A stretch of DNA of 50,259 bases from a virus: positions 1 through 50,259 of IMG/VR virus record IMGVR_UViG_3300031974_003055. One strand, written 5' to 3'. The notes under the pieces were generated by a model. The model saw only the letters and a list, made by a program, of their open reading frames with translations. It made no database searches and was not told where the DNA came from. How positions within the stretch are numbered: the first letter of the stretch is position 1; each line of letters begins with the position of its first letter. Shown piece after piece: positions 10,743 to 50,134 of the stretch. A program made the translations under genes and the position numbers.

Positions 10743-12935
10743 GACTCTCATGCCGTAGGCAGCCTTTTTCTTTTTGGATTTAAATCCTGGATTCTTTATG
10801 TAGGCACCTGTTTGTGCCCTGATTTTTTGAATCCTAGGTACGGGGACCATCAGTGTATTGAGGGTTTCATCATACCTAGCCTTAGGCAATGGTACGAACT
10901 CATTCATTACCTTGATTTCAGCCTGTTGTAGACTGATGTTGGAGGCCCTTGCTTCTTCGCGGATAAGCGCATCCAGGGCGTCCTCATTAGTCCTAGATAT
11001 TTGGTCATTTGCAAATCGCTCAAAGCTTTTCCCAATCGCGTGAGATTGATCTGTGGTTACGTTACTCCCCCCCCTCATCATAGAGGCTGTCATTGGATTT
11101 GTATCAGCTGCTTCCATCAATTCCTGTACCGTTGCTTGGTGTTGAGCAAGCTGCTCGTTCTTGGCGGTGCGAGCTCTACCCTTCATCAACGTATCAAATC
11201 TTTTCTTTATGTTTGAAGCAATGACAGGGTCGTTCAATACATCATCTAGAACTTGTGGGTCGATGTAATCCTCAAAATTCATTGATTTAAAAAAGCCTCC
11301 TTGCCCCATGGTGTTAAGACCAGCAATAGATATATCTGAGGTGCCAAAGCCTACATCAGTAAGATCGTCAGCTACGGTCTTGTATTTGCCCCTTGCCAGC
11401 TGCCTAAGCATCAGCGGATATGAATCTGTGCTATAGCTTCTCGTGGTGACAAAATCCCCCACGGGAACCTCAGCAAACATGGCGCTTAAGGTTTTTGAAA
11501 TTGCAGCATCAGCTTCCGTCCTTACCTGAGCCGCAGCGATGTCAGCTGTAGCGCCTTGTCGTAGCAGTTCAGCGTACCTGTCTTGATACAACTGTGACTG
11601 GTCGATTCTGGTTGACTGAAGAAGAAAGTCGTGATCCACTCCACCATCCCCAGGATTTAGCTGGGCTTTCATCCTAACGGTGAAGCCTGACGTAGGAAAA
11701 GTTTCCATCCTTGTCAATACCTCACCAGGTTTTGGTTTATTTCTATTTACTATGTAAGAAGCAGACACGCCCTTACCATACGTCTTTACATTAACCGTCT
11801 CAGTAAGTGGTTTGCCTGACGCTGTTGTCGCACCAGGCCTTTGCCTAACGCTGGTAATTTGATACTCACTGCCAGCAACAGATGGGCTTTGAACAGTTGA
11901 GGGTAGGTTGCCTGATCGCTGACCCAGCTGACGAGCTGAACCACCAGGAAGGTTCTCTGTAAGACCATCAATTAGACCTTGATAGTACTCTCTCTGATCA
12001 GGATGGAGCTGCGCAAGGCCAGGCGAGTTTATAAAGTTATTGATGATGTCTCTGGTTTGCTGAAGCTCTAGGTCAGTAAGGTTTGAGTTCCTCACGCCCA
12101 ATGCATCTGCTAAGCTTCTGCCTGATTGATAAGAGAAATCAGTAACCCCTCCTCCCGCTTGATTAACTACATGCTGCGATTGAGGCCTGTCAAAAAAGTC
12201 TCTCAAATACCCGCTGTTGGGCAAAGAGCTTACTCCAATCTGAGGCTCTGTCCAAGCACGCTGCCCTCCGCCCAGGGCGCTAGACCTTGTTCTGCCAAAA
12301 CTAATGTTGCCCATTGTCGCTGCCTCTTGGATGTATTCAATTACATCTGGCACCTTATTGCTTATGACACCCTGCTGTGCGGTTCTAGTGGCCAACGTTC
12401 TTATCTGATCGTCCGCCATAGCGTGAGCAGGGTTTATTGTGCCTGGCAAAAAGATTGAGGCAGTAGCCAGCCCTCCAGTTACTCCTGCTGCACCATATTC
12501 TCCTTGCATAGCGAGACGAGCAGCGTCACCCAGCGCCATAATGTCCCCAACTGGAGACAAAAACTCCATAACTGGCGCGACAGGAGTGGCCGTGCCCAAC
12601 ATTTTAGACTGTTCAATGTGTTCTTCAGCAGCCTCTCTCGTAAAACCGCTTTGCATCAACCTCTGAATCTTTTGTTGATGTTCTGCTTCGACAAAAGCAT
12701 CTCGCTGCAACTCATCTCTTAGCGTTTGATTCCTAAGAGATGGTCCGTCAAGACCCAAACGTGTTAAATTTTCGTCGCGTCTTTTTTCTACATACCCTGA
12801 GGGCTGATTTAAAAGCTGAGATGTAAGAAATGTAAGCTGGGGTGCAGCTACAGATGTATTATCAGAAGCCATGACCTCTGTACCAGGGGGCCAGTTATGG
12901 ATGCCACCATGGTTGTATTTCTTTTTTACTTGCAT
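10734..12935 (-). CDS. large virion/internal-protein candidate, 733 aa
   Basis: Last gene of the late arm. The N-terminus MQVKKKYNHGGIHNWPPG and C-terminus KSKKKKAAYGMRVKK are short basic tags. Between them lie helical segments (EEHIEQSKMLG), a Gly/Ala-rich hydrophobic patch near residues 125-165 (GAAGVTGGLATASIFLPG) and long Gln/Arg-rich stretches. The make-up is like internal virion or ejection proteins of Bacteroidota phages, with no enzyme motif. It overlaps the upstream thioredoxin-like gene by one base (TGATG). A cargo protein packed in the head or injected with DNA is an inference. Confidence 0.6.
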   Translation of the reverse strand: MQVKKKYNHGGIHNWPPGTEVMASDNTSVAAPQLTFLTSQLLNQPSGYVEKRRDENLTRLGLDGPSLRNQTLRDELQRDAFVEAEHQQKIQRLMQSGFTREAAEEHIEQSKMLGTATPVAPVMEFLSPVGDIMALGDAARLAMQGEYGAAGVTGGLATASIFLPGTINPAHAMADDQIRTLATRTAQQGVISNKVPDVIEYIQEAATMGNISFGRTRSSALGGGQRAWTEPQIGVSSLPNSGYLRDFFDRPQSQHVVNQAGGGVTDFSYQSGRSLADALGVRNSNLTDLELQQTRDIINNFINSPGLAQLHPDQREYYQGLIDGLTENLPGGSARQLGQRSGNLPSTVQSPSVAGSEYQITSVRQRPGATTASGKPLTETVNVKTYGKGVSASYIVNRNKPKPGEVLTRMETFPTSGFTVRMKAQLNPGDGGVDHDFLLQSTRIDQSQLYQDRYAELLRQGATADIAAAQVRTEADAAISKTLSAMFAEVPVGDFVTTRSYSTDSYPLMLRQLARGKYKTVADDLTDVGFGTSDISIAGLNTMGQGGFFKSMNFEDYIDPQVLDDVLNDPVIASNIKKRFDTLMKGRARTAKNEQLAQHQATVQELMEAADTNPMTASMMRGGSNVTTDQSHAIGKSFERFANDQISRTNEDALDALIREEARASNISLQQAEIKVMNEFVPLPKARYDETLNTLMVPVPRIQKIRAQTGAYIKNPGFKSKKKKAAYGMRVKK

Positions 12936-13300
12936 CAGAAGTCGCTCATCATGATTTCATCAACCGCCCCTTGGACATCGTCCTTACTGGCCTCCATCGT
13001 CATCATGATGTTGGCCTGAAACCTTTTCACTTCCTCGCCCTCGCTGAATACAACGATGGTTGGAACCACGACAATCTTGTGCTCCTTCTGTAGGGATGGA
13101 GCAGACACAATGTCTACACGGCTTGTTTCGCAATCGTTCAGTTTTTCTATCCATTCCACACTATTTTGGGAATTGAAAGATGCGTTGAACTCTACTACGC
13201 AGATGCCGCTGTCACATATTTTGTCATCCACTACATCTGCCACAGAGGCAGGTGCCAAGGATAGAACAGAGAATGCAAACAGGAGAGGTAAGGTCTTCAT
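12935..13300 (-). CDS. exported thioredoxin-fold protein lacking CxxC, 121 aa
   Basis: A Sec signal peptide (MKTLPLLFAFSVLSLAPASVA) precedes a compact domain. ICVVEFNASF matches the thioredoxin strand before the active site, but the CGPC position reads FNSQ, so the redox pair is missing. VVVPTIVVFSEGEEVKRF contains the conserved cis-proline and following strand. Two cysteines sit earlier (CDSGIC) and one later. A periplasmic, non-catalytic thioredoxin fold is inferred, perhaps a chaperone or binding partner of the secreted Cys-rich protein encoded three genes upstream. It lies between the TM/coiled-coil gene and the last virion gene. Confidence 0.65.
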   Translation of the reverse strand: MKTLPLLFAFSVLSLAPASVADVVDDKICDSGICVVEFNASFNSQNSVEWIEKLNDCETSRVDIVSAPSLQKEHKIVVVPTIVVFSEGEEVKRFQANIMMTMEASKDDVQGAVDEIMMSDF

Positions 13301-13303
13301 GTC

Positions 13304-13588
13304 TCATCTTAGTTGATCTATTTTTTCTTCAATACGCTTGATATCCTCCTTAATCTCAGTGATATCTTCTTGTGTGCTCATGATTGTCTGACGGACAAGC
13401 TGGTCCTTCATGTCAAACTCCATGCGCGTGATGTCTGGGTCTGGTGGCACGGGCAACTCCTTTGCCTCAGCGATGTCTGCCTGTAAGGCAAACCACATGG
13501 CCACGATTGTACCAATCCCCGCAGCCAGCATGCCTATTGTCTTTAGGTCTAGCGTAATCTTAGTGTCCTCCCCAATCTGCTGAGCCAT
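13304..13588 (-). CDS. TM plus coiled-coil protein (holin or spanin-like candidate), 94 aa
   Basis: Residues 18-35 (IGMLAAGIGTIVAMWFAL) form one membrane helix. A proline-rich hinge (ELPVPPDPD) and a strong coiled coil (residues 58-94: EDITEIKEDIKRIEEKIDQL) follow. An N-in membrane anchor with a periplasmic coiled coil resembles i-spanins (Rz-like) and some small holins. It lies within the lysis and envelope cluster, three bases after the beta-barrel gene. No outer-membrane lipoprotein partner is seen. Confidence 0.6.
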   Translation of the reverse strand: MAQQIGEDTKITLDLKTIGMLAAGIGTIVAMWFALQADIAEAKELPVPPDPDITRMEFDMKDQLVRQTIMSTQEDITEIKEDIKRIEEKIDQLR

Positions 13589-13589
13589 A

Positions 13590-14624
13590 TCAAATAATTA
13601 CATAGTTGATTCCCAGAGAGAAGTCATGCCATGACCTGTCCCAATACTTGTGGTATTTACCCTCTGCGAATACACCAAAACTTTTGTTGAATCTTTTACC
13701 AAAGATAAGGCCTCCAGAATAGTCGAGCCACTGCCCGCTATTCACGAACCTGTGGTACGAGTATTCGCCGTCTGTGTCCAAGTGGTAGGGGATCAGGTTG
13801 GCCCAGCTATGCACCCAAAAGTCCTTTGTAAAGTGGTAGTAGTCAAAGCCAACTACCACAGAATGAACCCATTGATTGTCCAGTTCTCCACGTTTTTTGC
13901 TCACATAATCTTCGAGCGCCTGGGGGATGACAACTTCCTCCCACACCTCGTAGCTGCTGGCCACGAGCGTTCCGCCTGGGCTGAAGAACTCACCCGTGTT
14001 CACGTCAATGTTATACCCCTCCTGCAGAGCGAGTGAAGTAAAGTGAAGTTGATTGTTGTCTAGCAACCACTCGTTCAATGGGTCGTATCCGTATGGCTCT
14101 GACAGGCGCTGCATAAGCCCAGCGTTGAGCGAGAGTTTGCCAAGCTTAACTCTCCCCCTCTGTGATGCCTCGAAGTATCTTACATCTGCGAAACCATCCT
14201 GCAGGAACTCCACCTTGGCGATCCACTTGTCCGCCACATATCTGAGGAAATAGTCCTGGTCCAGGTAGTTGACACCCTGCTGTCTCCTGTAGTCTCCCTC
14301 GAACAGGAACTCAAAGCCACTCACCTTGCCAATGGTGGCGGCATCGCCGTAAGACTTTTCTGTTCCGTTGTAGAATGTGTTGGCTCTGTTCTCGTATCCA
14401 AAACGAGCAATCTTGCGAACGCCTGCAGTCAAGGAGTAATCGAAAGGAGTTTGGATCACGTCTGTCTCAAGACCATTGGCCACGGAGAATACCTCCCTGT
14501 CTGACAACGAGTTACCTCCACTGAATGCTGTGTAGAAGGTGGCAAACTTAAAGGCCTTTTTTAGACCCTGGCCTGATGCGTTAAAGCATAGCAGCAGCAG
14601 CAGTGTGGTTGCGATATATCTCAT
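13590..14624 (-). CDS. putative outer-membrane beta-barrel protein, 344 aa
   Basis: A signal peptide (MRYIATTLLLLLCFNASGQG) is followed by some 320 residues rich in aromatic amphipathic strands: FDYSLTAGVRKIARFGYENR, HSVVVGFDYYHFTKDFWVHS, SGGLIFGKRFNKSFGVFAEG. The end is a strand, WHDFSLGINYVII. There is no plug, TonB box or enzyme motif. This is the layout of a bacterial outer-membrane barrel, unusual in a phage. It is coupled by ATGA to the T9SS-secreted protein encoded just upstream. Possible roles: receptor masking or superinfection exclusion, an outer-membrane step in lysis, or a partner for the secreted protein. Confidence 0.7.
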   Translation of the reverse strand: MRYIATTLLLLLCFNASGQGLKKAFKFATFYTAFSGGNSLSDREVFSVANGLETDVIQTPFDYSLTAGVRKIARFGYENRANTFYNGTEKSYGDAATIGKVSGFEFLFEGDYRRQQGVNYLDQDYFLRYVADKWIAKVEFLQDGFADVRYFEASQRGRVKLGKLSLNAGLMQRLSEPYGYDPLNEWLLDNNQLHFTSLALQEGYNIDVNTGEFFSPGGTLVASSYEVWEEVVIPQALEDYVSKKRGELDNQWVHSVVVGFDYYHFTKDFWVHSWANLIPYHLDTDGEYSYHRFVNSGQWLDYSGGLIFGKRFNKSFGVFAEGKYHKYWDRSWHDFSLGINYVII

Positions 14625-16762
14625 TGCTTCACGATTCTTTCGACTCTAACTCTACCCTTGTAATTGATTACAACTTCATACAATCCATTAGGAAGCGCTC
14701 TGAGGTCGATCTCTCTGCCTCCCTGCCATGACATTACAAGCTGCCCAGAGTGGCTGTAAACGTCTGCAAACGCCTCTGCAGGGGCCTGGAAGTTGAGCAC
14801 ACCAGACGTTGGGTTGGGCCACATCTGAATTGAGTTATAGTCCAGCGCCTCTACACTAGTCACGCCCTGGCTGCAGTAGTCATACATCTCGATGCACACC
14901 GCATCCCAACCAACCTCACAGCAGTAGGGGTCAACCTCGATGACCCATGAGTAGCAGTAGTCGTTCGCCCAGTATGGTTCACCAGGGCCAGTGATGCATC
15001 CCGCATCGTAGAGGCATTCCTCATTGGCTGGCACGTTGGCGTACACGTTGTAGTTAGCCGCGTCAGGGTCCATGCACCCTGGCATAGGCAGCTCGCAGCT
15101 ACCGTTGTTGGTGTTGGCCATGGGGTCGTAGTTGATGGCCTCTGGGATCGTGCATCCGTAGATGAACGGAATGCAGCTATTGTTCTCTGTGTTGGCCAGC
15201 TCGTTGTAGTTGAACATGGTGGGATCAGTGCACCCAAACACAACCTCTTCACAATCTGCTGGGTCTGTAGCAGCTTCGTTGTAGTTGTAGGCTGTTGGGT
15301 CTTGGCATCCAGCCACTTCCAGCTCGTCACACACACCGTCGCCGTCCGCATCGTTGATGCACTCGTTGTCGCATCCGTAGTACTCGATGGGAAAAGTGCA
15401 GTCGCCATCCACGTTGGCTGCGGGGTCGTAGTTGCAGGCAAAGCTGAGCGTACATCCCTCAATGGCAGGCACACAGAAGTCTCCGCATACAGGGATACCA
15501 CTGTACTTGAATGGGAACTTCTTGATGGCGTCAGACCAGGGGTTAGTTCCGCCCTCCATAAACACACCGTTGGGTCCATCAAAGTAGAACCCACATTGAT
15601 TAGCTGTAGTTTCTGCGTTGCCCTGCGTAAAGAACATGACCTTAACCCCCTCTCCAGAATACAAGGGGATCTGAACCTCTTTCTCAAACCCATCACTGGG
15701 GTGCATAGTAAGTGGCCCCCAGATCTCGTCGCCCTGTTGAACTCCAATCCAGCTACCAAACCAACCGTCACCTGCTCCATCTGTAAGTGTCAGAGTAAAG
15801 TCACAGTTATCTTCTGTCTCCAGAGTATTGGCATCCTCGTTGAAGTTAATTGACTGAGGATCAGTGCATCCTAGGATTACTTCTGTCTGGCAGGTGCCGT
15901 CGTCTAGCACAGCAGACGGATCGTACTCTGTAAACCATGGATCCGTACACCCCTGAGGCACTGGTGGCACGCATGCGTCTACAGCAATGATGTCGCTGCC
16001 AATGCTCTCGTACTGAGTGGTGTCACCAACGTAGTAAAGCTCATCGCCACACAGGTTGGACACCAGGATGTTTCCATCGACGCCGCCGTAGCAGCTACCA
16101 CACATGCCGTCGCCAAAGGTGTCGTACACGTTGACCTTAAACTCTGAGCCCACGGGTAGACACACCGCCTCTACAACAGGGGCACCCACAATAGAATAGC
16201 CTGATCCCTCAGCAACAATCTCACCATCTGGGAACGTCATCAAGTCCCAGCTGATCTCAGCTGCATAAGTGTCAGGCGTAACGGTGACAAGGACGTTGCT
16301 GTATCCTTCTTCGCATTGTGCTGGTGGGAAGTCGCAAGGGGCAGGCGCGTTCGCCCAAGGGTGATAGTTGATGGCGCCAACCTGCATACACCCAAAGATG
16401 GGGGGCGGACACGCAAGCACCTCGAAGGGGACGGTCATCTCTGACGTGCTGAAGTCGTACACCGTGGTGTCCAGGACGCAGGTGTTGATAGAGAACCATC
16501 CCTCTCCAAATCCGCAACAGATGCCATCACCAAACGAATCGTAGATAGTAAAGGTGTAGTCGCCTTCAGGAAGAGGAAGAAAGGCCTCAACGTAAGGATA
16601 CTCCCCCTGGAGGGGAGCAGACCCCGCGACAATGGCGTCGCTGGAGTCTCGAACTAGCCATGTAGTTTCGTTGCCGTATGCATCACCCTGTATAGAGATA
16701 GAGACCCAGCCTGTCTGAGCAGTAGCAAACAGGGGTAAAAACATCAGCAACAAAAATCTCAT
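14621..16762 (-). CDS. T9SS-secreted Cys-repeat protein with C-terminal sorting domain, 713 aa
   Basis: Four parts are visible. A signal peptide (MRFLLLMFLPLFATAQ). Two related beta domains of the marine Bacteroidota type, with FTIYDSFGDGICCGFGEGWF and VNVYDTFGDGMCGSCYGG. Then about eight repeats of the form GC-x-DP-x(2-3)-NY-x(2)-xAN-x(4-6)-C. Last, residues 636-713 match a type A T9SS sorting domain: MWPNPTSGVLNF, YSHSGQLV, IDLRALPNGLYEVVI and RVERIVKQ. The product should cross the inner membrane by Sec and the outer membrane by the host T9SS, to be displayed on or released from the cell. A calcium-type DADGDGVCDELE segment lies mid-protein. It is coupled by ATGA to the holin (upstream) and the beta-barrel (downstream). 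Confidence 0.9.
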   Translation of the reverse strand: MRFLLLMFLPLFATAQTGWVSISIQGDAYGNETTWLVRDSSDAIVAGSAPLQGEYPYVEAFLPLPEGDYTFTIYDSFGDGICCGFGEGWFSINTCVLDTTVYDFSTSEMTVPFEVLACPPPIFGCMQVGAINYHPWANAPAPCDFPPAQCEEGYSNVLVTVTPDTYAAEISWDLMTFPDGEIVAEGSGYSIVGAPVVEAVCLPVGSEFKVNVYDTFGDGMCGSCYGGVDGNILVSNLCGDELYYVGDTTQYESIGSDIIAVDACVPPVPQGCTDPWFTEYDPSAVLDDGTCQTEVILGCTDPQSINFNEDANTLETEDNCDFTLTLTDGAGDGWFGSWIGVQQGDEIWGPLTMHPSDGFEKEVQIPLYSGEGVKVMFFTQGNAETTANQCGFYFDGPNGVFMEGGTNPWSDAIKKFPFKYSGIPVCGDFCVPAIEGCTLSFACNYDPAANVDGDCTFPIEYYGCDNECINDADGDGVCDELEVAGCQDPTAYNYNEAATDPADCEEVVFGCTDPTMFNYNELANTENNSCIPFIYGCTIPEAINYDPMANTNNGSCELPMPGCMDPDAANYNVYANVPANEECLYDAGCITGPGEPYWANDYCYSWVIEVDPYCCEVGWDAVCIEMYDYCSQGVTSVEALDYNSIQMWPNPTSGVLNFQAPAEAFADVYSHSGQLVMSWQGGREIDLRALPNGLYEVVINYKGRVRVERIVKQ

Positions 16763-17196
16763 TTCTTAGCTTTCTCAATGGTTCTACCAGCGAAGTATGC
16801 ACCAAATGCTGTTAGCATTAATATTTGCAACAAATCTACGTATGAATCCTTTACGTTAAAGGGCCAGTTGTCCATGCTGTCCGCCACCATAGTGACCATG
16901 AACATCGTCATCAAGGCGATCAAAGTTACTGGTCTGATGAGCTTTGCAAGCTTTACATCGCTGCCCATGTCTGCCTTCCAGCGCTCAGTCACGTTGTTCT
17001 GAAACTGAATCTCTGCGTCCACAGCGGCAATGCCTTCGTCTGTGTTTACGTCTGGATCTTTTTCAATAAGATTCTTTACAATGCCCAACCCTCCCTGGTC
17101 TGGGAGAAGGTCTCCTACCACATCGAGCACGTTGGGTGCTTTTGACTTCAGCCATTTCCCAAGCCCTGTGTCTTTGATTTTTTTGTTCTGTTCCAT
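16759..17196 (-). CDS. holin, 3TM-holin family type, 145 aa
   Basis: A charged N-terminal half is followed by ERWKADMGSDVKLAKLIRPV, then membrane helices at about 88-106 (RPVTLIALMTMFMVTMVA) and 121-137. The end is FGAYFAGRTIEKAKK. The RW...RP start and the G-x-Y-x-x-G-R-x-x-E-K ending match the Holin_3TMs family (PF11351 as I recall it). Such holins open the inner membrane at lysis. It begins the envelope module and overlaps the secreted-protein gene by ATGA. No endolysin can be recognised beside it. Confidence 0.8.
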   Translation of the reverse strand: MEQNKKIKDTGLGKWLKSKAPNVLDVVGDLLPDQGGLGIVKNLIEKDPDVNTDEGIAAVDAEIQFQNNVTERWKADMGSDVKLAKLIRPVTLIALMTMFMVTMVADSMDNWPFNVKDSYVDLLQILMLTAFGAYFAGRTIEKAKK

Positions 17197-24744: not shown

Positions 24745-25755
24745 TCATTTATCGTGAGCGAGCTGGATTGGCTCGTACTGGAGGTTGAGGCTGCTGATCT
24801 CAAAATAACCCTTTGATACAGGGATTTGAATAGAGGCTTCAGCAAACTTGCCACGTGCTGGCTCCCCAACCAAAGACGGATGGGCCACACCAATAAGATA
24901 CACGTCTGTATTTGGCTGTTCTAGTTGAAAATCAATTACCCGCTGCAAGTTGTTGTTGGGTGAGGTGTAATTAAATGCCATGTTTTGCGGATCAAAGGCA
25001 GCGTATTCATTCGCAAAAGACCCATCATTAAATGCGGCAACATCCTGGGTAAGAGATGATATGGTTGAGTAGGTCTGATCAACCATTTGTGTGACGCCTA
25101 GTTGCTGACCGTTTGGGAATAAATATCTAGTCCCCTGAGAGTTTGACTGATTGACTGTCAAGATGCAGATCTTCATCTGCAATGACGCTGTCTGAAATAC
25201 TTGAGGTGAGATGCCTGTGTTTGGATCTAAAAACACCTTGTAGTGCGATGGGATAGGACTCTGACCAGGAGTAAAGGGGGAAAACCTTACCCCTGTAATC
25301 CTGCCCAGGTTAAAGACGTTCTTACCAGGAAACAATCCATTTTCTTGAGCTATTGGTCCGTAAGTGGTACCGTTGATGGTCCTTAAAAAGTCAATCGAAA
25401 CAGACTGATTTGGGGCGTTAACGTCCCTGACGTCTATGTGATTGTTGGTTTTCATTACAGACAAAGACCCTTCAAGATTGCCACTCCCTTCAATAGAAAA
25501 GGTCTTAAAGATCTTGTTGTTAGATGACTTTTCGTTAAACGAAACCACCAAAGAACTTGGGGTGGCACTACCATAAAATGTATTGTATTGCTCCCCTGAG
25601 TTGTGCAGCCATATAGGGCTTTCGTATTGAGCATTGACAAGAGGAGAGCTAGGCGAAGACATAAATTTACTCCTCACCCTACTAAAGTCTGAGGAGGCAT
25701 AGCTGTACCTGCTTGTCCATTGATTTGTCTTGTTGCTAAATCCTATTGTTGGCAT
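24745..25755 (-). CDS. nozzle/muzzle C-terminal module as a separate protein, 336 aa
   Basis: The first 110 residues (NQWTSRYSYASSDF, ESPIWLHNSGEQYNTFYGSA, KIFKTFSIEGSGN) match the segment I recall from the end of tail nozzle/muzzle proteins of crAss-like and related podoviruses: W-x-S-x-Y-x-Y, then LYxHN, FYG, pS-x-V and KvFKTxSxEG. Here it is a separate gene, six bases after the 2779-residue protein that carries the preceding nozzle segments. The remaining residues are beta-rich. It is probably assembled into the tail tip beside the giant protein. Confidence 0.65.
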   Translation of the reverse strand: MPTIGFSNKTNQWTSRYSYASSDFSRVRSKFMSSPSSPLVNAQYESPIWLHNSGEQYNTFYGSATPSSLVVSFNEKSSNNKIFKTFSIEGSGNLEGSLSVMKTNNHIDVRDVNAPNQSVSIDFLRTINGTTYGPIAQENGLFPGKNVFNLGRITGVRFSPFTPGQSPIPSHYKVFLDPNTGISPQVFQTASLQMKICILTVNQSNSQGTRYLFPNGQQLGVTQMVDQTYSTISSLTQDVAAFNDGSFANEYAAFDPQNMAFNYTSPNNNLQRVIDFQLEQPNTDVYLIGVAHPSLVGEPARGKFAEASIQIPVSKGYFEISSLNLQYEPIQLAHDK

Positions 25756-25761
25756 GACTTT

Positions 25762-28700
25762 TTATTCCTCTGTGAATTGATCGTAGAATGAAGCATCGCT
25801 AGACCCCTGGAATGGAGTGCCAGAAGTAACAGAGGCGATAGCTTGAAGAGCATCTAAAGTCCCTCCTGGAAGAGTGAATTGGTCAGGCAGCTCCACGAAG
25901 TTAACGGTACCATAAATCTGCAGATTCGACGCGCTGTGCTCATTTATCATAACAAACATAAGATCAGTTAGGTCATTAAATGAAGCAATGCCGTCTTGAT
26001 TAAAGTCACCTGTTTGTTGAGACTCATTACTCGAATATCCAAGGCTAAACGTTGGACGGATAAGAGCATTAACGACACTGTCTGCGAAGTCTGCGTTGTA
26101 AAACTCACTTTCAGTATTCAATGCATTAGAGACAAAGTTTGCTACATCTTGTGTTGTAAATGCCAGTGATGGGTCTACGAAAGCACCCTGTAAGTCATTG
26201 ATAACGTCACCAGTGCCAACGCCAGCTCCATTTATTACTGCATACAAATTGCGCTGATTTTCTGGTAGAGTTGCCCAGGTTTGAGCTGTAAGACTAGTAA
26301 CGTTGCTTGTCTCCCCAGCACCAAGGGAGAAAGAAAACATGTCATCTAGATTAAGGTCTGTGCTTTGGTCCAGCAAAATCTTTATGTTTTGATTGACCTT
26401 GCTCAACACAGAAGACAAGCCCAGCCATCCGCTAAAGCCTGGGACGACAACAGACCCGTCCCCAACAAGGTCTATCATGATGTTTTCTCCGCTCAAAATA
26501 TTTTCAGCTTGGACGCCGCGCAGTCCAATAGGAGAGAAATTAGCCCAGTATCCCCCAATGTTTTCTTCAAGGTTGTCGATCTGTGTTGACACCTCTCCAT
26601 CCAAATACGATGTACTTGTTGACTGATTCAATTCGTTTGGTACTTGAGCAGAAAAAAGGTTTTGCCAATTACGAAGATGGGATATGGCCATCCCAACATC
26701 TCTAGCAACTGCCTCAACAGCATTATGCCAAACACCTCTGTATACCTCTGATTGAATATCAGCCGTCAAATCCCCTTGATACAGGCTATAACCAAGGTTA
26801 TTTGTTATAGTGGATATTTGCTGGAACGTGCTCTCCAACTCTTCATAGATAGATATCAAAGAGGCCTGGCTTTCAGCTTTTCCTTGAACTATGCGAATAG
26901 CCTCGTCTACAGTTTCAGAGATAAACGCTTCATCCCCTTCAGACCACAGAGGATCTTGTAAGCGCGCTCTCAAAAACTCAAGCGTCTCAACGTCAGATAC
27001 GTCAAACCCTTCTTGGAAATCATCTGATGGGCCAGTAAGACCCATGCTTTCTGCAAGATTAAACACCCCTTCAAGAAGTCCGCTAATGTCTGATTTAACT
27101 CCCTCCCAAGTTTGGCTGCCTCCAAGAGATCCAAAAGCAAGGCTGAGTGCTCCAGTTGGCAATGCGGCTTCAACCTCTTCAGCTGTTATAATGCCATCGC
27201 CGTCTGTGTCAAAACTGTTTACAATTCCAGCAAATGCAGCGCCCGTAGATCCGTAGCTGCTTGTTATGGCTGCCGCCAACGTTGCATTTATACCGCCATC
27301 AATTAAGGCTTGCAGGAACTGATTGTCTGTCGAAACATCTATTGAATTAAGAATACGAGCCAAGGCAAAAGCAAGAGAATCTCTGGTGGTGACGACATTC
27401 ACTATCTGTTGATCTTTTGCTTCAAACTGTTCAATCGCAGGAACTGTCACATTGCTATGTATTCCTAACGAGATGTAATTAGAAATCATTTGGGAAAAAC
27501 CAATGTTTTCTTGACCATAGCTTTCTAGCACTGCAAACACAGATAAAGGATCTCCGTTTGTCGCTAGAATATCATTTATAAAGGACAGTGACAAGAATCC
27601 AAATGCATTAGACGGATCAATATCTTCAGCACTAACATTTACTGGATCTGAATAATCTAATTCTGATTCAGGAAGCTCTTCCTTGGACAAGTCAGGTACA
27701 AGGAATGTAGAAGCTCCAAGAACAATTTCATAAATCTGAGAAAGAACACTGAGAAAACTCTCTTCAGCAAATGCCTGGGCCGCTTGTGCTTCCAGTGTAG
27801 CAGCCTCTAGCTCCTCAAGAACATTTTCAGAAATGTAAGCACTTCCAACCGCAAACAACTCAAAGTAAAGTTCAATCTGCTGATTTAGCTTAGCTCGCGG
27901 ATCCAATGCCCCCACGACGCCGCCCAGGGCATCGTCTCCAGCCGCATCACCCCCTACAATATCAGTATTAATGCTAAGGTAATTAAATGAGCCTTCCTTT
28001 GGGAAAACACCTACGCCATATCCTGTGGTGAAAGTATCTGCAATATCTTCTTCAGTAAAAGGCTCCACTGCCCCTCTACCATAGAGTATAGTTTCGCTCT
28101 CGTCATACCAATCGACTAAGTACTGACAAAGTTGCATGATGGATGCACATCGCTCTGCAGCAAGCCATGGAGGTATTGTTAGTATTTGTCCATTTGCCCC
28201 AAACGGAAAGTCTATAAACTCTTGTTCATCTGAAACTATTGGACTACCCCCCACAAAGGCAGTTTGAACTTCCAAGACGGGGTTGGATGGGAAGGAGCCT
28301 GGATTTAGCAGGTTTAGGCCTGAATCATCTATATCATATTCAAAGCCTAGAAGATCAAGGATTCGTGCGTAAACATCTCTAGTCTGCGCAAAAAGAGCTC
28401 TCGTGTTCGACTGCAAACTCTCCTCTACGCTCATCGTCCCAACCTGAGAATCAAAAAATGCTTGAGCTTCATTATCAGCATCAGCTGCCTGCTGAATCAA
28501 ATCTGATATTGCCGCATTTAAATCACTAATATTTCCTGAACCTCCGCCCGTATTAGCAAGAGCTAGTTCTTGTTGAAGCACAGCAATTTGAGCTGTAAGA
28601 GATTCTACTTCAGCCTCTGCTTCACTAAGATTATTTTCTAAGTTAAGATATACCTGTAGGTCTAGCTGAGCTTGCTCTAAATCAGCAATCAAACCAGCCT

Positions 28701-31700
28701 CTTCCTCCAAAGTAAGGTCTCCCTGCTGCGTGGTGAAATCAATAAATTCATCTTCTGCAGTATCAGACGGGAATGCATCGTCCTGGAATACAAAAATAGA
28801 CCCTGTAAAGTCAAGAATATTTTGGTTGTAGGCAGAAATGATATACTCGTCGTGTTCTGCATCATACCCTCCAGCAACTCTCGTTTTTCCAGGAGAGTTT
28901 AAAAGAGTAGAAAACATATCTCTGAAATAAGACTTCATGCCCCTGTCAGAAATAATCGAAACACCTGAAGAAAGATTAAACTTATATACTTCTCCTCTTT
29001 GCTTATTCGCCCAGAATATTGTGTTGCCGTACATAGCAACAGATTCTGGATTTGTGTCACAGCCGTTCTCGCCAGCGTAAAACCTTTGAACGCCAAGAAC
29101 TTTTGATGTAGCAAGAACCGTTTCAGATCCAGAGGCATCAGAAACAATCGTTCTGTTCACTGGAACTGAACTAACCTTTGTGTTTTGCAGAACAAATAGG
29201 CTATCATTATAATCCAATATGCAAGCAATAGAACCGTATGAATTGGGGAGATCTTTAAAAGGCTGCTTTGTGGCGTCATACGAATTAAGCCTCAGTTGTA
29301 CATCTGTGTAGTCGTCTTGATCTGAGAAAATTATGCTTGCATACCTTCTAACCTCAGCAGCGTTAGGATCCACCAATTTTGCCCTACCGTAACTATACTG
29401 ATTTGCTCTTAGAATTGTGTCGCTAAATGTTTCTGACTCTAAATAAAAGTTGAAAAACGCTGGAATGGACGATCCAATGGGTTGGACAATGCTTTGAAAT
29501 TGCCCATCAGAAAGAGGCGCGAGGTTTACAGCGTGTCTTCTAAAGTACACATCTCCATCTTTGAGGGTGAGAGGATTATACTGGTGACTCAATACAGCTG
29601 ATCCAATAGGACCGTTAGGGTCTGGCCCCCTCAAAACCTTGTAAGACTCGCCTATTTCTCTATACGCCACCTCATCGCTATCTCTCAACAAGGAAGGCGT
29701 ATAAATCTCAACTACACACCTGTTGTTCCAGAGTGAAGAGGAATTGGGAAGAATGTTTGTTTGAATTGAGTTGACGCTAAAACCGCTGGCGGTAGGATTG
29801 TTTTTTAGCACCACAAAAGTACCCGTAAGATACTTTGGTATCTCCTCCTGGTTTACAGGCGAGTACAGAGGGTTCTGATCAGTGTCACTCCCAAGTGTGA
29901 CTACGTCAACAATGTCAAACTCCACGTTGTTCGCGTAAATTCTAGCACCGCCCTCGTTGTAAGAAATAACTCTTAGCTTATCGCCTGGTCTATACTGATA
30001 AAACGTATCGCTGCCATCAGCAGGCCTTGCACCAAATGCGTCTACATAAGAGACATCACTGTTGCCTTGAAGGTAATTTAAAGAAACATAGATGTTTCCT
30101 GTAGAAACTACACCCAAGTCATCGTTTAAATCAAACTCTGTGTCCGTTACAAACCCTCCTCCAACGCTATATTGTATAAACTTATCGTATGATGTGTTGC
30201 CAGCATACACAATTTGATAAGAATAAGCCCAAGATGGAGGCTCATTATTAATCTGAATACTGATATCCACTGGGCCTCCAAGCCCCACATTCCCCTCTTG
30301 CTCAGCCATGGGCGGAACAAACGTTGTGCCTAGTGGGAAAACGCTACTTTGTCTCCCATAAAAATCAGAGTACACAATCCCAAAATCGTGAAAAGCGTTG
30401 GCCTTAAACGTTTTTCTATCCGCTGAGTCCCCCCCAACCGCAACAAATGACAACTGTGATGTGATTTCAATATGTGGAATTAATTGCCTATACCATCCAA
30501 GCGGATCCGTAATCGTATAAGAGGGGACATTTTCTGTGCCAGAAAACTCTATCTGATCTTGTTCTATAAAGCTGGTGAAGTTTATGTTGACGTACCCAGT
30601 ATTTTTAATTTCCTTGTTAAGCTTTCCATCAAAAGCATTTAGAGTTTGGACGTCATTAAGGCTATATGGCAAATCATGTACTGACTGTCCATCTGAAGTA
30701 CCTGTAGATACATATCCCATGTAGTATTCAAACGGGTTAATCCAATATCCAAGCGCCAAGCCATTTGGGCTTCCAACAAAACCATCAACCAACAGCTCTC
30801 CATTGGCTGTCATATTAGGAGTTCTGTCAAACACTAAGTCTCCTGCGAGATCACCACTTTCATAATTATAAAGAGAATCGCTTCTCATCGTCTCAAAGTG
30901 CGATCTCAAGGCATTAGGGTTGTTGTACGTGGGGCTAACGTCTGACTCTCCCCCAGCAAAGTAATACAATATCCCATCCCTAAGGGTAGTGGCGTTGACA
31001 CTGCCAATGTCAGCATTTGACCCTGGACCAGCCTCACCATCAACAAGGGTGTAACCTAAGACTCGCCTCAAAATATCCTCTGCATGATCATACTCATTCA
31101 GAAGATTTTCTGAATCCAGAATTTGAGCATTTAATTCATTAACAACTCTTCGTCTAGTGCAAACCAAAGTGCCTGAAGGGTTAGTGTCAGAGGCAGGTCG
31201 TCCTCCATCTAGCGCTGGGTCCACACCACCGCCACTACCCACAGCCCTACCAGGAAGGTCCATGTATCCTAACAGGCGAGTTATAAAACTAAGCTGGAAA
31301 ACTGTAGGCTCGACTCCGTATGACAACGAGGAGGGCATGCTCGCCCCTCCAAGAAAATCTTCTGTGCCAATAGGATACTGAAGTATTCCAAGACTTCCAG
31401 TAATTCCTGTAGCAAAGTTATTATTAATGGGTGGCTCTGAACGATACTGACGCATAACGCCCCCACTATAGGTTCCATTATAGATATTTTTTACATCTAC
31501 TTTTGTGGCCACAGATGTCAACAAATTCGTTAATTCAGAGATGTCTGTAGCCCCATTAATAAGACTTGCCACAGCAGACTTTCTCAAGCAAACCCACCCG
31601 CTGATACGGTTGCTTATCGTTTCAAAGTATTCTGATTCTTTAAATTCAAAGATTTGATCTTGAAATACACCTCCAGCGAGGAGATCACTATCAGGATCAC

Positions 31701-34101
31701 CAGGATTAATCTGAGCAACATACTCGACATGATTGTCAATTAGTGCTTGGTATCTACAGCTAGCGGTGTTTTGGTATCCTCCCTTAATGTCTGGGATGCA
31801 TGTTAAAACTTCTTCGTTTTGTATATCAAGCAAATCCAATGCAAGAAATACATCATCTGTTTGAACATTATTGACTCCAATTAGATCGTAGTATGACCCA
31901 TCTTCATACTTTTTATTGGGATTAAAAATAGTAGGGTGGATACAATCAATAAGACCAAAGGTTACATCAGCCTTGTTGACAATAAAATAGCCGCAGGGAG
32001 GTTGATTAACTGGCTCTGAGTTTTCAGACAAAGTTCGATCCGTAACAAAACACACCTTTTGACCTGATGGGCTTTGAGATGAAAAATAATCGTAGCTGTT
32101 TAGACCTAAATCAATAGAATAACTAGACGTACTCTTTACGTCAATTATGGTAACATCTGATGAAACTAATTGTCCAGGACCCGCTGGACCCTGAGATGGG
32201 AGTATGATTTCAGCTCCTGTGAGAACAGCCCCAATAAATCCTTTTAGTTCTGACCTAGTAATGCTGTTGTTTACCAGCAACCTTACATTAAAAGTCATGA
32301 CCCTTCCGCTTAAGATCAAAGGATTAGACGCAGATGTGCCGTAACAAACCTCTGCAGAGCTCTCGTTAGGAGAGCTGCTATTCCAAACGGCAGAGGGTCT
32401 GTTTTGATAGGTTTCCTCTAGGTTTGCTATAGGATCCCAGCCCAAATCTTTAACAGTAAGATTAGGCATCCCAGAAAAAAGTGATGGAGATTGAACGCTA
32501 CTTACTTTTCCATGCGCTTGTTGGATGGGATTGAATCCCTTGCTCAAAAGCGTGTTCTCAAAAACAGCTCCGCCATCTTCTTGAACCTTGTCTTTGAGGT
32601 CGCTAGATCCGCCTGGGTCGTGAGTGACAAAAATGCTTGAGTGAAAACTGTCTTGAGCCTGATATAGGTGAATGTTTTTATCAGGGTTGCAAGTAATGCT
32701 AATGTTTAATGTTGTGCCAGGGTCAAAAACTTCTGGAGCGCCTGACATGTCTAGCCTAAATCCGCTAACCCTATTGCGCACAAGATCTGTAAATTCACCA
32801 GTCTCAAGATTGAAGTTTGTTTTTTGTGGTAAGGCCCTTACCTCTGGGACAAGCTTTAGATCTACCTCCTGAAAATCGTCAGGTCTTGGCCTAGAAACGT
32901 AAGAGATGTTTGCATCAATAGCGACCTTGTCAAATCCCTCGACATAGTTTCCAAAAAACGACCTGTCATTGCAGATGTCAAATGCCTCCGCAAGTTTGGG
33001 CACGCTATCAAACTGCTTGAAAGTAATGTCTTCAGGAACGTAAGAAATCAATCTATCTCCATAGTATCTATAAGCGTAGTATACGTATGGTATAATTCCC
33101 TCATTGTTTGCATTGACAGCCAGATCACCGTTATGAGGTCCCGTCCACTCTGAACCTGCAGCAGCTTCTGACGACCTTAAGTCATCTATGTAAAACCAGG
33201 CGCCGTCATTCCCCTCCCTGCCGTAAAGTTTAATGTAATCTACGTTCTTGCTTTGCTCTGGGATTCTAACACTAATAAAATTGTACCCCTCAACGTCAGG
33301 AGTAGGGTCAGCACCTTGTCCTAGATAAGCAGGGTTTACAGCAAGTTTAGAGTATATTGAAAACGCACTAACAGTGCCATTGTTGTAAACATTTTGATAA
33401 GCAAATTGGAGACCCCTAGAGTTTCTAAATGCGCTCGATGTTCTAACTGGATCATATCCCCAAACGGGCACGATAGACCTAAGCGGTGTGATTGGGCACA
33501 TTGAGATAAACTCAACAAGCTCCGCATCATTGTACCCAATGTAGTCGCCCCTCAAGCAGGCCAATATGTCTAGACACCTAGGCTCATTATAGTTGTCTGT
33601 GAAATACAAAAATGTTTTTTCACCAACACCCTGACCAGACTCAACGCTTGAAACGTGCGTGACAGAACCCTGAACTACTGAATTGTAGTAGAAGTTAAAA
33701 AATCTGTTTTGAAAAACTATCTGAACATTTCCAACTGCGTCGTCATACATCAACACCCCGTGCTTGCTGGGATTCTGATGCCACATAAAAAAATACACTA
33801 CGCCCTTTGCCTCATCAGTAACGCTTCCAATAATGCTGTATTGAGACTGAGCATCTACGATTCCGTCTCCTGAACCCTCAACACCAATGATCGTGTTGCC
33901 AAGCACAGGCTTTACAACCCCCATGTTTCCAGAGTTGGAGATTTCGTTTCCAGCATCTCCGCTCTCGTCTAGTCCTTTTTTAAATGCGTCAAGACTTTCT
34001 GTTGCCCTTACATTAAGGGCATCGCTCATCTCTGTCTTCTTTCTAACCCTTGTGTCTTTAGACTTAGAAAGGACTCTGGGGAATACTTTGTTTACAGCCA
34101 T
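25762..34101 (-). CDS. giant tail nozzle/muzzle-like protein with EF-hand-like insert, 2779 aa
   Basis: N-terminal features (GLQFAYQNVYNNGTVSAFSI; VDYIKLYGREGN) and the segment near residues 1670-1760 (SVAMYGNTIFWANKQRGEVY; IISDRGMKSYFRDMF; VAGGYDAEHDEYIISAYN) follow the order of nozzle/muzzle (stabilisation) proteins of crAss-like phages. About 1000 further residues follow: a coiled coil near 1804-1852, long acidic helices, an EF-hand-like loop FDTDGDGIITAEEVEA near 2297 and a dockerin-like loop GDFNQDGIASFNDLTDLM near 2694. The product is far longer than usual nozzle proteins. It overlaps the adaptor gene by one base (TAATG). It probably closes the tail and may bind Ca2+ and the cell surface. 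Confidence 0.75.
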   Translation of the reverse strand: MAVNKVFPRVLSKSKDTRVRKKTEMSDALNVRATESLDAFKKGLDESGDAGNEISNSGNMGVVKPVLGNTIIGVEGSGDGIVDAQSQYSIIGSVTDEAKGVVYFFMWHQNPSKHGVLMYDDAVGNVQIVFQNRFFNFYYNSVVQGSVTHVSSVESGQGVGEKTFLYFTDNYNEPRCLDILACLRGDYIGYNDAELVEFISMCPITPLRSIVPVWGYDPVRTSSAFRNSRGLQFAYQNVYNNGTVSAFSIYSKLAVNPAYLGQGADPTPDVEGYNFISVRIPEQSKNVDYIKLYGREGNDGAWFYIDDLRSSEAAAGSEWTGPHNGDLAVNANNEGIIPYVYYAYRYYGDRLISYVPEDITFKQFDSVPKLAEAFDICNDRSFFGNYVEGFDKVAIDANISYVSRPRPDDFQEVDLKLVPEVRALPQKTNFNLETGEFTDLVRNRVSGFRLDMSGAPEVFDPGTTLNISITCNPDKNIHLYQAQDSFHSSIFVTHDPGGSSDLKDKVQEDGGAVFENTLLSKGFNPIQQAHGKVSSVQSPSLFSGMPNLTVKDLGWDPIANLEETYQNRPSAVWNSSSPNESSAEVCYGTSASNPLILSGRVMTFNVRLLVNNSITRSELKGFIGAVLTGAEIILPSQGPAGPGQLVSSDVTIIDVKSTSSYSIDLGLNSYDYFSSQSPSGQKVCFVTDRTLSENSEPVNQPPCGYFIVNKADVTFGLIDCIHPTIFNPNKKYEDGSYYDLIGVNNVQTDDVFLALDLLDIQNEEVLTCIPDIKGGYQNTASCRYQALIDNHVEYVAQINPGDPDSDLLAGGVFQDQIFEFKESEYFETISNRISGWVCLRKSAVASLINGATDISELTNLLTSVATKVDVKNIYNGTYSGGVMRQYRSEPPINNNFATGITGSLGILQYPIGTEDFLGGASMPSSLSYGVEPTVFQLSFITRLLGYMDLPGRAVGSGGGVDPALDGGRPASDTNPSGTLVCTRRRVVNELNAQILDSENLLNEYDHAEDILRRVLGYTLVDGEAGPGSNADIGSVNATTLRDGILYYFAGGESDVSPTYNNPNALRSHFETMRSDSLYNYESGDLAGDLVFDRTPNMTANGELLVDGFVGSPNGLALGYWINPFEYYMGYVSTGTSDGQSVHDLPYSLNDVQTLNAFDGKLNKEIKNTGYVNINFTSFIEQDQIEFSGTENVPSYTITDPLGWYRQLIPHIEITSQLSFVAVGGDSADRKTFKANAFHDFGIVYSDFYGRQSSVFPLGTTFVPPMAEQEGNVGLGGPVDISIQINNEPPSWAYSYQIVYAGNTSYDKFIQYSVGGGFVTDTEFDLNDDLGVVSTGNIYVSLNYLQGNSDVSYVDAFGARPADGSDTFYQYRPGDKLRVISYNEGGARIYANNVEFDIVDVVTLGSDTDQNPLYSPVNQEEIPKYLTGTFVVLKNNPTASGFSVNSIQTNILPNSSSLWNNRCVVEIYTPSLLRDSDEVAYREIGESYKVLRGPDPNGPIGSAVLSHQYNPLTLKDGDVYFRRHAVNLAPLSDGQFQSIVQPIGSSIPAFFNFYLESETFSDTILRANQYSYGRAKLVDPNAAEVRRYASIIFSDQDDYTDVQLRLNSYDATKQPFKDLPNSYGSIACILDYNDSLFVLQNTKVSSVPVNRTIVSDASGSETVLATSKVLGVQRFYAGENGCDTNPESVAMYGNTIFWANKQRGEVYKFNLSSGVSIISDRGMKSYFRDMFSTLLNSPGKTRVAGGYDAEHDEYIISAYNQNILDFTGSIFVFQDDAFPSDTAEDEFIDFTTQQGDLTLEEEAGLIADLEQAQLDLQVYLNLENNLSEAEAEVESLTAQIAVLQQELALANTGGGSGNISDLNAAISDLIQQAADADNEAQAFFDSQVGTMSVEESLQSNTRALFAQTRDVYARILDLLGFEYDIDDSGLNLLNPGSFPSNPVLEVQTAFVGGSPIVSDEQEFIDFPFGANGQILTIPPWLAAERCASIMQLCQYLVDWYDESETILYGRGAVEPFTEEDIADTFTTGYGVGVFPKEGSFNYLSINTDIVGGDAAGDDALGGVVGALDPRAKLNQQIELYFELFAVGSAYISENVLEELEAATLEAQAAQAFAEESFLSVLSQIYEIVLGASTFLVPDLSKEELPESELDYSDPVNVSAEDIDPSNAFGFLSLSFINDILATNGDPLSVFAVLESYGQENIGFSQMISNYISLGIHSNVTVPAIEQFEAKDQQIVNVVTTRDSLAFALARILNSIDVSTDNQFLQALIDGGINATLAAAITSSYGSTGAAFAGIVNSFDTDGDGIITAEEVEAALPTGALSLAFGSLGGSQTWEGVKSDISGLLEGVFNLAESMGLTGPSDDFQEGFDVSDVETLEFLRARLQDPLWSEGDEAFISETVDEAIRIVQGKAESQASLISIYEELESTFQQISTITNNLGYSLYQGDLTADIQSEVYRGVWHNAVEAVARDVGMAISHLRNWQNLFSAQVPNELNQSTSTSYLDGEVSTQIDNLEENIGGYWANFSPIGLRGVQAENILSGENIMIDLVGDGSVVVPGFSGWLGLSSVLSKVNQNIKILLDQSTDLNLDDMFSFSLGAGETSNVTSLTAQTWATLPENQRNLYAVINGAGVGTGDVINDLQGAFVDPSLAFTTQDVANFVSNALNTESEFYNADFADSVVNALIRPTFSLGYSSNESQQTGDFNQDGIASFNDLTDLMFVMINEHSASNLQIYGTVNFVELPDQFTLPGGTLDALQAIASVTSGTPFQGSSDASFYDQFTEE

Positions 34102-50046: not shown

Positions 50047-50060
50047 TGTATTTAATTTCG

Positions 50061-50134
50061 TACCCCTGTCAGGACTCGAACCTGAAACCTACGCATTAGA
50101 AGTGCGTTGCTCTATCCTGTTGAGCTACAGGGGC
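50061..50134 (-). tRNA. tRNA-Arg (anticodon UCU)
   Basis: A 74-nt cloverleaf on the minus strand: acceptor GCCCCTG with CAGGGGT (one G-U at the end), D-arm GCTC/GAGC, anticodon stem ACGCA/TGCGT with loop CTTCTAA, T-arm TCAGG-TTCGAGT-CCTGA. The anticodon UCU reads AGA and AGG. CCA is not encoded. A TAAATTTG box lies six bases upstream. Phage tRNAs often offset codon bias or host tRNA cleavage. Confidence 0.93.

Follow-up and report, generated by a model that had tools for sequence, protein, structure and literature searches.

The window, meaning the whole stretch of DNA analysed here, spans 50,259 bp and makes up an entire IMG/VR virus record. Four genes lie together on its minus strand: a 713-aa cargo protein with a type IX secretion system (T9SS) tag (14621..16762), an outer-membrane β-barrel of 344 aa with a signal peptide (13590..14624), a 94-aa membrane protein (13304..13588) and a secreted thioredoxin-fold protein (12935..13300). 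The cargo gene belongs to a late minus-strand block, in which it is flanked by a holin gene (16759..17196, minus strand; phrog_3427, E 1e-21) and by further secreted or membrane proteins. Its stop codon overlaps the start codon of the barrel gene by 4 nt (ATGA, 14621..14624, minus strand), and exactly the same overlap is seen in 100 of about 135 homologous barrel loci with a readable upstream gene, a count in which some contigs appear twice.

The terminase, portal and major virion genes of the record match PHROGs phage families. The terminase is 48% identical to that of an uncultured podovirus, and the closest cultured-phage terminases are those of the Flavobacterium elemo phages (41%), Maribacter phage Panino (40%) and Cellulophaga podoviruses (34-37%). 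Two tail-region proteins (window 25762-34101 and 24745-25755) carry crAss muzzle protein domains (PF25731, 46.5 bits, and PF25729, 38.5 bits; gathering score 27 each). Thus, the phage is crass-like and falls near Crassvirales. The cargo is a genuine phage gene, as the initial annotation had it, and in this crAss-like podovirus it has the holin on one side and more late genes on the other; the label "lytic" given to the phage at that stage is not supported. Neither the barrel nor a TIGR04183 protein was found in seven terminase relatives (elemo, Panino, phi46:3, phi19:3, phi38:1, Gundel_1 and the Manatee Spring podovirus). The host of the cassette phages is therefore a presumed one, since neither barrel nor tag occurs in the cultured phages whose terminases are related. 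A tRNA-Arg (TCT) gene is located at the end of the record (window 50060-50134).

The T9SS type A sorting domain occupies the very C-terminus of the cargo (residues 648-713 of 713; 14624..14821, minus strand). It was recovered by the HMM search that had been named beforehand as the check, with TIGR04183 matching over profile positions 2-72 of 72 (29.9 bits against a cut-off of 23, E 4e-7), and no other protein of the 50,259-bp record matches this model. Pfam PF18962 matches the same end with 26.3 bits, just below its gathering score of 27. TIGR04183 is also matched by 34 of 37 diverse cargo homologues, and a profile of these 37 searched against the PDB retrieved the T9SS C-terminal domains (CTDs) 8glk and 8glj and the CTD of 7pzj. 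In the AlphaFold2 model of the cargo (mean pLDDT 77; the pTM of the full-length protein is low, 0.40), the tag superimposes with Foldseek on 8glk_D (TM 0.82, rmsd 1.9 Å), which shows a CTD in its T9SS-bound state, and on 8glj_D (TM 0.78). A chance origin of the tag is ruled out by the homologue matches, the modelled CTD fold and the PDB profile search together. The N-terminus, MRFLLLMFLPLFATA-QTG, is by inspection a Sec signal peptide (about residues 1-16; 16715..16762, minus strand), and N-termini of this kind are conserved across the homologues. The sorting domain and signal peptide first noted on this protein are thus both borne out. Use of the host T9SS, proposed along with them, is presumably correct. 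The translocon protein SprA is encoded in 3/4 of the metagenome-assembled genomes (MAGs) that hold a cassette contig, a count that concerns these MAGs and not the host of the window.

The cargo could instead be a virion protein with an incidental C-terminal resemblance, and similar CTDP repeats do occur in cyanophage proteins, one of them annotated as virion structural. However, the signal peptide, the above-threshold tag with its matching fold and the coupling to a barrel that itself has a signal peptide make this reading very improbable.

Between signal peptide and tag, the model strand pattern shows three β-sandwich domains and a short Cys-rich repeat, which form a variable tip (residues 17-410; 15533..16714, minus strand). 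The tip is followed by a stalk of Cys-rich "GCTDPxxxNYNxxAN" repeats (residues 430-583; 15014..15475, minus strand) and by a helical Cys-rich base domain that adjoins the tag (residues 584-632; 14867..15013, minus strand). Among homologues, mean pairwise identity climbs from about 36-39% in the β-sandwich tip to 57% in the stalk and 68% in the base, and drops to 32% in the tag. The first reading of the protein was right about the tag, and missed that conservation among the folded parts of the cargo is lowest in the tag and highest in the domain before it. Such a gradient would be expected of a tag that serves export and nothing else, a base with a conserved binding partner and a tip exposed to variable surroundings. 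The type A tag is carried by 84/95 cargos, and the other 11/95 retain the base and end in a different conserved tail, VTDLLGRPxK...ILFFIYSDGTVEKKL (fuller form VTDLLGRPxKxxxNKILFFIYSDGTVEKKLxK). This replacement tail, which is found in about one cargo in nine (L039-L045, L048, L064-L066, L068 and L071), may be a shortened or second sorting signal.

The early description of the cargo as adhesin-like is plausible: it has three β-sandwich domains and a stalk of Cys-rich repeats, and one homologue contains a MAM domain. Together with the variable tip, this architecture would also suit a role in adhesion, in which cargo exposed on infected cells would stick them to neighbouring cells or to particles and so help progeny to find hosts. 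A Pfam search of the cargo of the window revealed no lectin or adhesin family, however, and adhesion would leave the conserved inner-membrane and periplasmic partners unexplained, so that it is considered unlikely as the purpose of the cassette. A structure search with the AlphaFold2 model gave no trustworthy fold match for the tip domains.

The partner encoded downstream is modelled by AlphaFold2 as a closed antiparallel barrel preceded by a signal peptide (pLDDT 75, pTM 0.71), with residues 75-95 being unreliable. Among the best folds found for it with VIA-align are Tsx, NalP, KdgM and NanC (Z 11-12), of which Tsx, NalP and NanC are 12-stranded. As these are generic outer-membrane barrels, the matches name no function. 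The barrel has no convincing Pfam, NCBIfam or PHROGs family and no match to PDB sequences, and no known T9SS barrel profile of the PorP/SprF type was detected in 54 barrels at E 0.1 with NCBIfam and Pfam. Judged from sequence comparisons, it appears to represent a previously unnamed protein family and a dedicated, virus-only partner of the T9SS cargo. Some relatives (L064, L068, L061, L044, L033, L038 and L105) carry a lipobox-like SCAAPKxCC just before a signal-peptidase-like AQ site, and these barrels may therefore be lipidated.

The 94-aa protein is well conserved (75% mean column identity in alignment A3) and consists of one transmembrane helix followed by a charged coiled-coil segment. 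This layout, an N-terminal transmembrane segment and a coiled coil, matches that of an i-spanin, with topology and orientation uncertain. In the thioredoxin-fold protein, the CxxC active site is absent in 19/19 homologues and replaced in all of them by NxxN, with N43 and N46 invariant and the cis-Pro loop VPT kept. PF00085 is matched by 16 of the 19 at E <= 0.01, the copy in the window scoring below the gathering threshold. A conserved 60-aa protein (MINWINSWKxGNKKEKY...IRIGKLTVLE..FCPC) recurs beside the cassette in L010, L061, L108, L113 and L135.

Loci were drawn from IMG/VR with the cargo, the barrel and each small gene in turn as query, and linkage was counted over distinct loci with enough flank after removal of duplicates and short contigs (109 and 95 loci). 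Both small genes are near the barrel in 109/109 distinct loci, and a cargo with the Cys-rich base, its most conserved part, accompanies the barrel in 95/95. When the 94-aa gene is taken as the anchor, the full set is present in 38/40 cases, and with the thioredoxin gene as the anchor in 40/42. Searches of whole records gave one barrel per genome in 41/41 phages and a single TIGR04183 protein in 35/40. Contigs of 50 kb or more chosen by their terminase provide a sample that is independent of the cassette itself, and the 94-aa gene and exactly one tagged cargo were found in 7/7 of these. Gene order is variable, the cargo following the thioredoxin gene instead of preceding the barrel in several phages, yet the four genes remain together. 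In an 89-kb contig (L355, 8001-8674), the genes for the 94-aa protein and the thioredoxin are present, but no barrel was found within 8 kb. The initial annotation had thus picked out the tagged cargo correctly but overlooked the strictly conserved, phage-only cassette of four genes to which it belongs, with its apparently dedicated outer-membrane barrel.

Barrel relatives number at least 582 in viral contigs, as against four loci in 84,980 prokaryote species genomes. Of these four, L157 holds the full cargo-barrel pair among phage genes and L159 has the same cassette order, and both are on these grounds interpreted as phage contigs in MAGs; the remaining two are a 3.8-kb contig (L158) and a fragment (L160). 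A profile search of 395 genomes from the class of one of these MAGs recovered the barrel from the known MAG and from none of the 394 others, and the four-gene set has so far not been found as an ordinary bacterial chromosomal operon. When the cargo, the barrel and the two small proteins were compared by tblastn with 50,697 annotated phage records, no real homologue emerged; the matches were limited to fragments of repeats or CTDs and to Streptomyces thioredoxins at E > 0.01. Purifying selection on the cassette is strong, with dN/dS values of 0.02-0.03 for the barrel, 0.06-0.07 for the cargo and 0.08-0.18 for the CTD alone (two closest pairs). Flavobacterial proteins often contain CTDP-like repeats and type A tags, which would suit the acquisition by chance of a bacterial T9SS protein as a host-derived moron with no dedicated phage role. 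However, this reading was rejected as highly improbable, given the overwhelmingly viral distribution, the lack of the barrel in the 394 other genomes, the strict four-gene linkage and the low dN/dS of the barrel.

Phages with terminases only about 20% identical to that of the window can have barrels that are 63% identical to its barrel. In the maximum-likelihood barrel tree, the distant-terminase phages G006, G008 and G038 nest with two phages of the window clade with strong support (100/99 and 100/97), and G029 and G037 nest inside the second terminase clade (support 100/98). Set against the terminase distances, this nesting indicates that the barrel has moved between phage lineages, and as linkage is strict, the cassette presumably moved with it. 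A second barrel type (L298, L409, L437, L328 and L439-L445) shares 69 of the conserved positions of the main type and differs at 34. It keeps both small genes, but TIGR04183 is found in 0/9 of its records, two of which are of 66 and 85 kb. Thus, the cargo and the main-type barrel go together, and the barrel and the two small proteins, being kept when the cargo is missing, are the core of the cassette. The changes in the second type fall at 11/23 conserved positions in the large loop 176-250 compared with 23/80 elsewhere, a difference that is only suggestive.

As the largest protein of the set bears a host export tag and is matched with a virus-only outer-membrane channel, the cassette viruses probably assemble a structure that spans the envelope of the infected cell and extends onto its outer face. 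The products would come together as an envelope complex late in infection. Sec would carry the cargo through the inner membrane, and the host T9SS, which would read and normally remove its CTD, would take it through the outer one. The Cys-rich base, now the new C-terminus, would then dock on the translationally coupled phage β-barrel. In this way the barrel would retain the cargo at the cell surface with the variable β-sandwich tip outward, and the periplasmic NxxN thioredoxin and the 94-aa membrane protein may connect or assemble the barrel from inside. The genes, tag, fold classes, linkage, conservation gradient and transfer between phages are established; export, cleavage, the complex and the docking of the base on the barrel are inferred, the docking from linkage and conservation in the sequences. 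This export-and-docking architecture, in which the cargo travels via the host T9SS and its base sits on the phage barrel in a late envelope complex, is considered reasonably probable. A probability of about 0.5 is given to the fuller reading, in which the cassette is a phage-only, laterally spread envelope machine of marine Bacteroidota phages that uses the T9SS to put a surface subunit on a viral barrel, with a redox-dead thioredoxin and an inner-membrane protein connected to that barrel, and so either closes the cell to competitors or breaches the outer membrane.

The most likely purpose is tentatively taken to be superinfection exclusion, the host surface being remodelled to prevent adsorption of additional phages. 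Gliding adhesins exported by the T9SS are among the candidate receptors of flavophages, and mutations in the T9SS confer phage resistance (PMC13288928); these points, together with the variation of the tip, favour this purpose.

Breach of the outer membrane at lysis is a close rival, and is regarded as possible rather than likely. Here the 94-aa protein, the NxxN thioredoxin and the barrel would act in the manner of spanins to break or open the outer membrane, with the cargo as a surface subunit or trigger. Judged from sequence, the cassette stands amid holin and endolysin-like genes in unrelated gene orders. A holin homologue is present in 57/109 cassette loci and precedes the cargo in the window, L010 and L091, and the thioredoxin gene is followed by an M15-peptidase-like gene in L104, L149 and L155 and by an amidase-like one in L177. 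A lysis role is also suggested by the i-spanin-like layout of the 94-aa protein, by a crude ORF scan of the late region that revealed no lipobox ORF as a candidate for another spanin, and by the status of the cassette as core in its clade, with the trio persisting where the cargo is missing. However, a large cargo with a variable tip would be superfluous for lysis, the 56 residues that follow the transmembrane helix are short for spanning the periplasm, and the barrel of the window has no lipobox. In addition, only single-protein spanins are reported for Bacteroidetes phages (PMC12596118). An essential late step would explain a cassette that is universal in its clade and has holin and endolysin genes as neighbours no less well than exclusion would.

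Several known systems resemble parts of the cassette. Ordinary type A cargo of Bacteroidota, which is released or anchored through A-LPS, has the same signal peptide and TIGR04183 sorting domain with CTD fold, but the phage cargo is encoded by a virus and coupled to a dedicated barrel. In the type B system of PorP/SprF and SprB, a surface cargo is likewise paired with its own neighbouring outer-membrane barrel gene; however, the phage cargo bears a type A rather than a type B tag, and its barrel matches no NCBIfam barrel model. Phage spanins share with the cassette a small transmembrane and coiled-coil protein near the holin and partners across the envelope, but here the outer-membrane partner is a β-barrel and not a lipoprotein, and the thioredoxin and the T9SS cargo are extra. 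Among phages, Cryophage encodes type A T9SS-tagged proteins for which secretion by the host is presumed and a role in competition or superinfection exclusion has been suggested (Bellas et al. 2020, PMC7468147). Export of a tagged protein by a phage, initially held to be unexpected, therefore has a precedent. It differs in that three flexible variable genes of one phage are concerned (an endoglucanase, a GH39 and a PA14 protein), with no barrel, cassette or strict linkage described in the parts of that report consulted. Crass-like phages with a T9SS tag near the head genes are also on record, although these are BACON repeat proteins and the portions of the account consulted describe no barrel, thioredoxin or 94-aa partner (PMC6949934).

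No description of the cassette was found in the literature covered, subscription journals being mostly outside that coverage. Phage-encoded T9SS cargo is thus a phenomenon already known. The novelty lies in the cassette of four genes, dedicated and mobile, which is a new form of this phenomenon and may even be a system of a new kind. A single curious protein thereby becomes a defined and testable four-gene system in hundreds of marine phages, bearing on how Bacteroidota phages handle the outer membrane and on how infected marine flavobacteria alter their surface. If the proposed reading is true, a secretion system specific to Bacteroidota is exploited within the phages' own infection programme, a previously unnamed family of phage outer-membrane proteins gains a partner and a mechanism, and phages have a new route for shutting out competitors or breaching the outer membrane. 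The second barrel type, being without cargo, offers a natural control for mapping the docking surface. Beyond the cassette phages, a TIGR04183 protein (49 bits) is encoded by a 642-kb uncultured phage (L283; LR756502.1 325937-326140), and T9SS tags therefore appear to occur in huge phages too.
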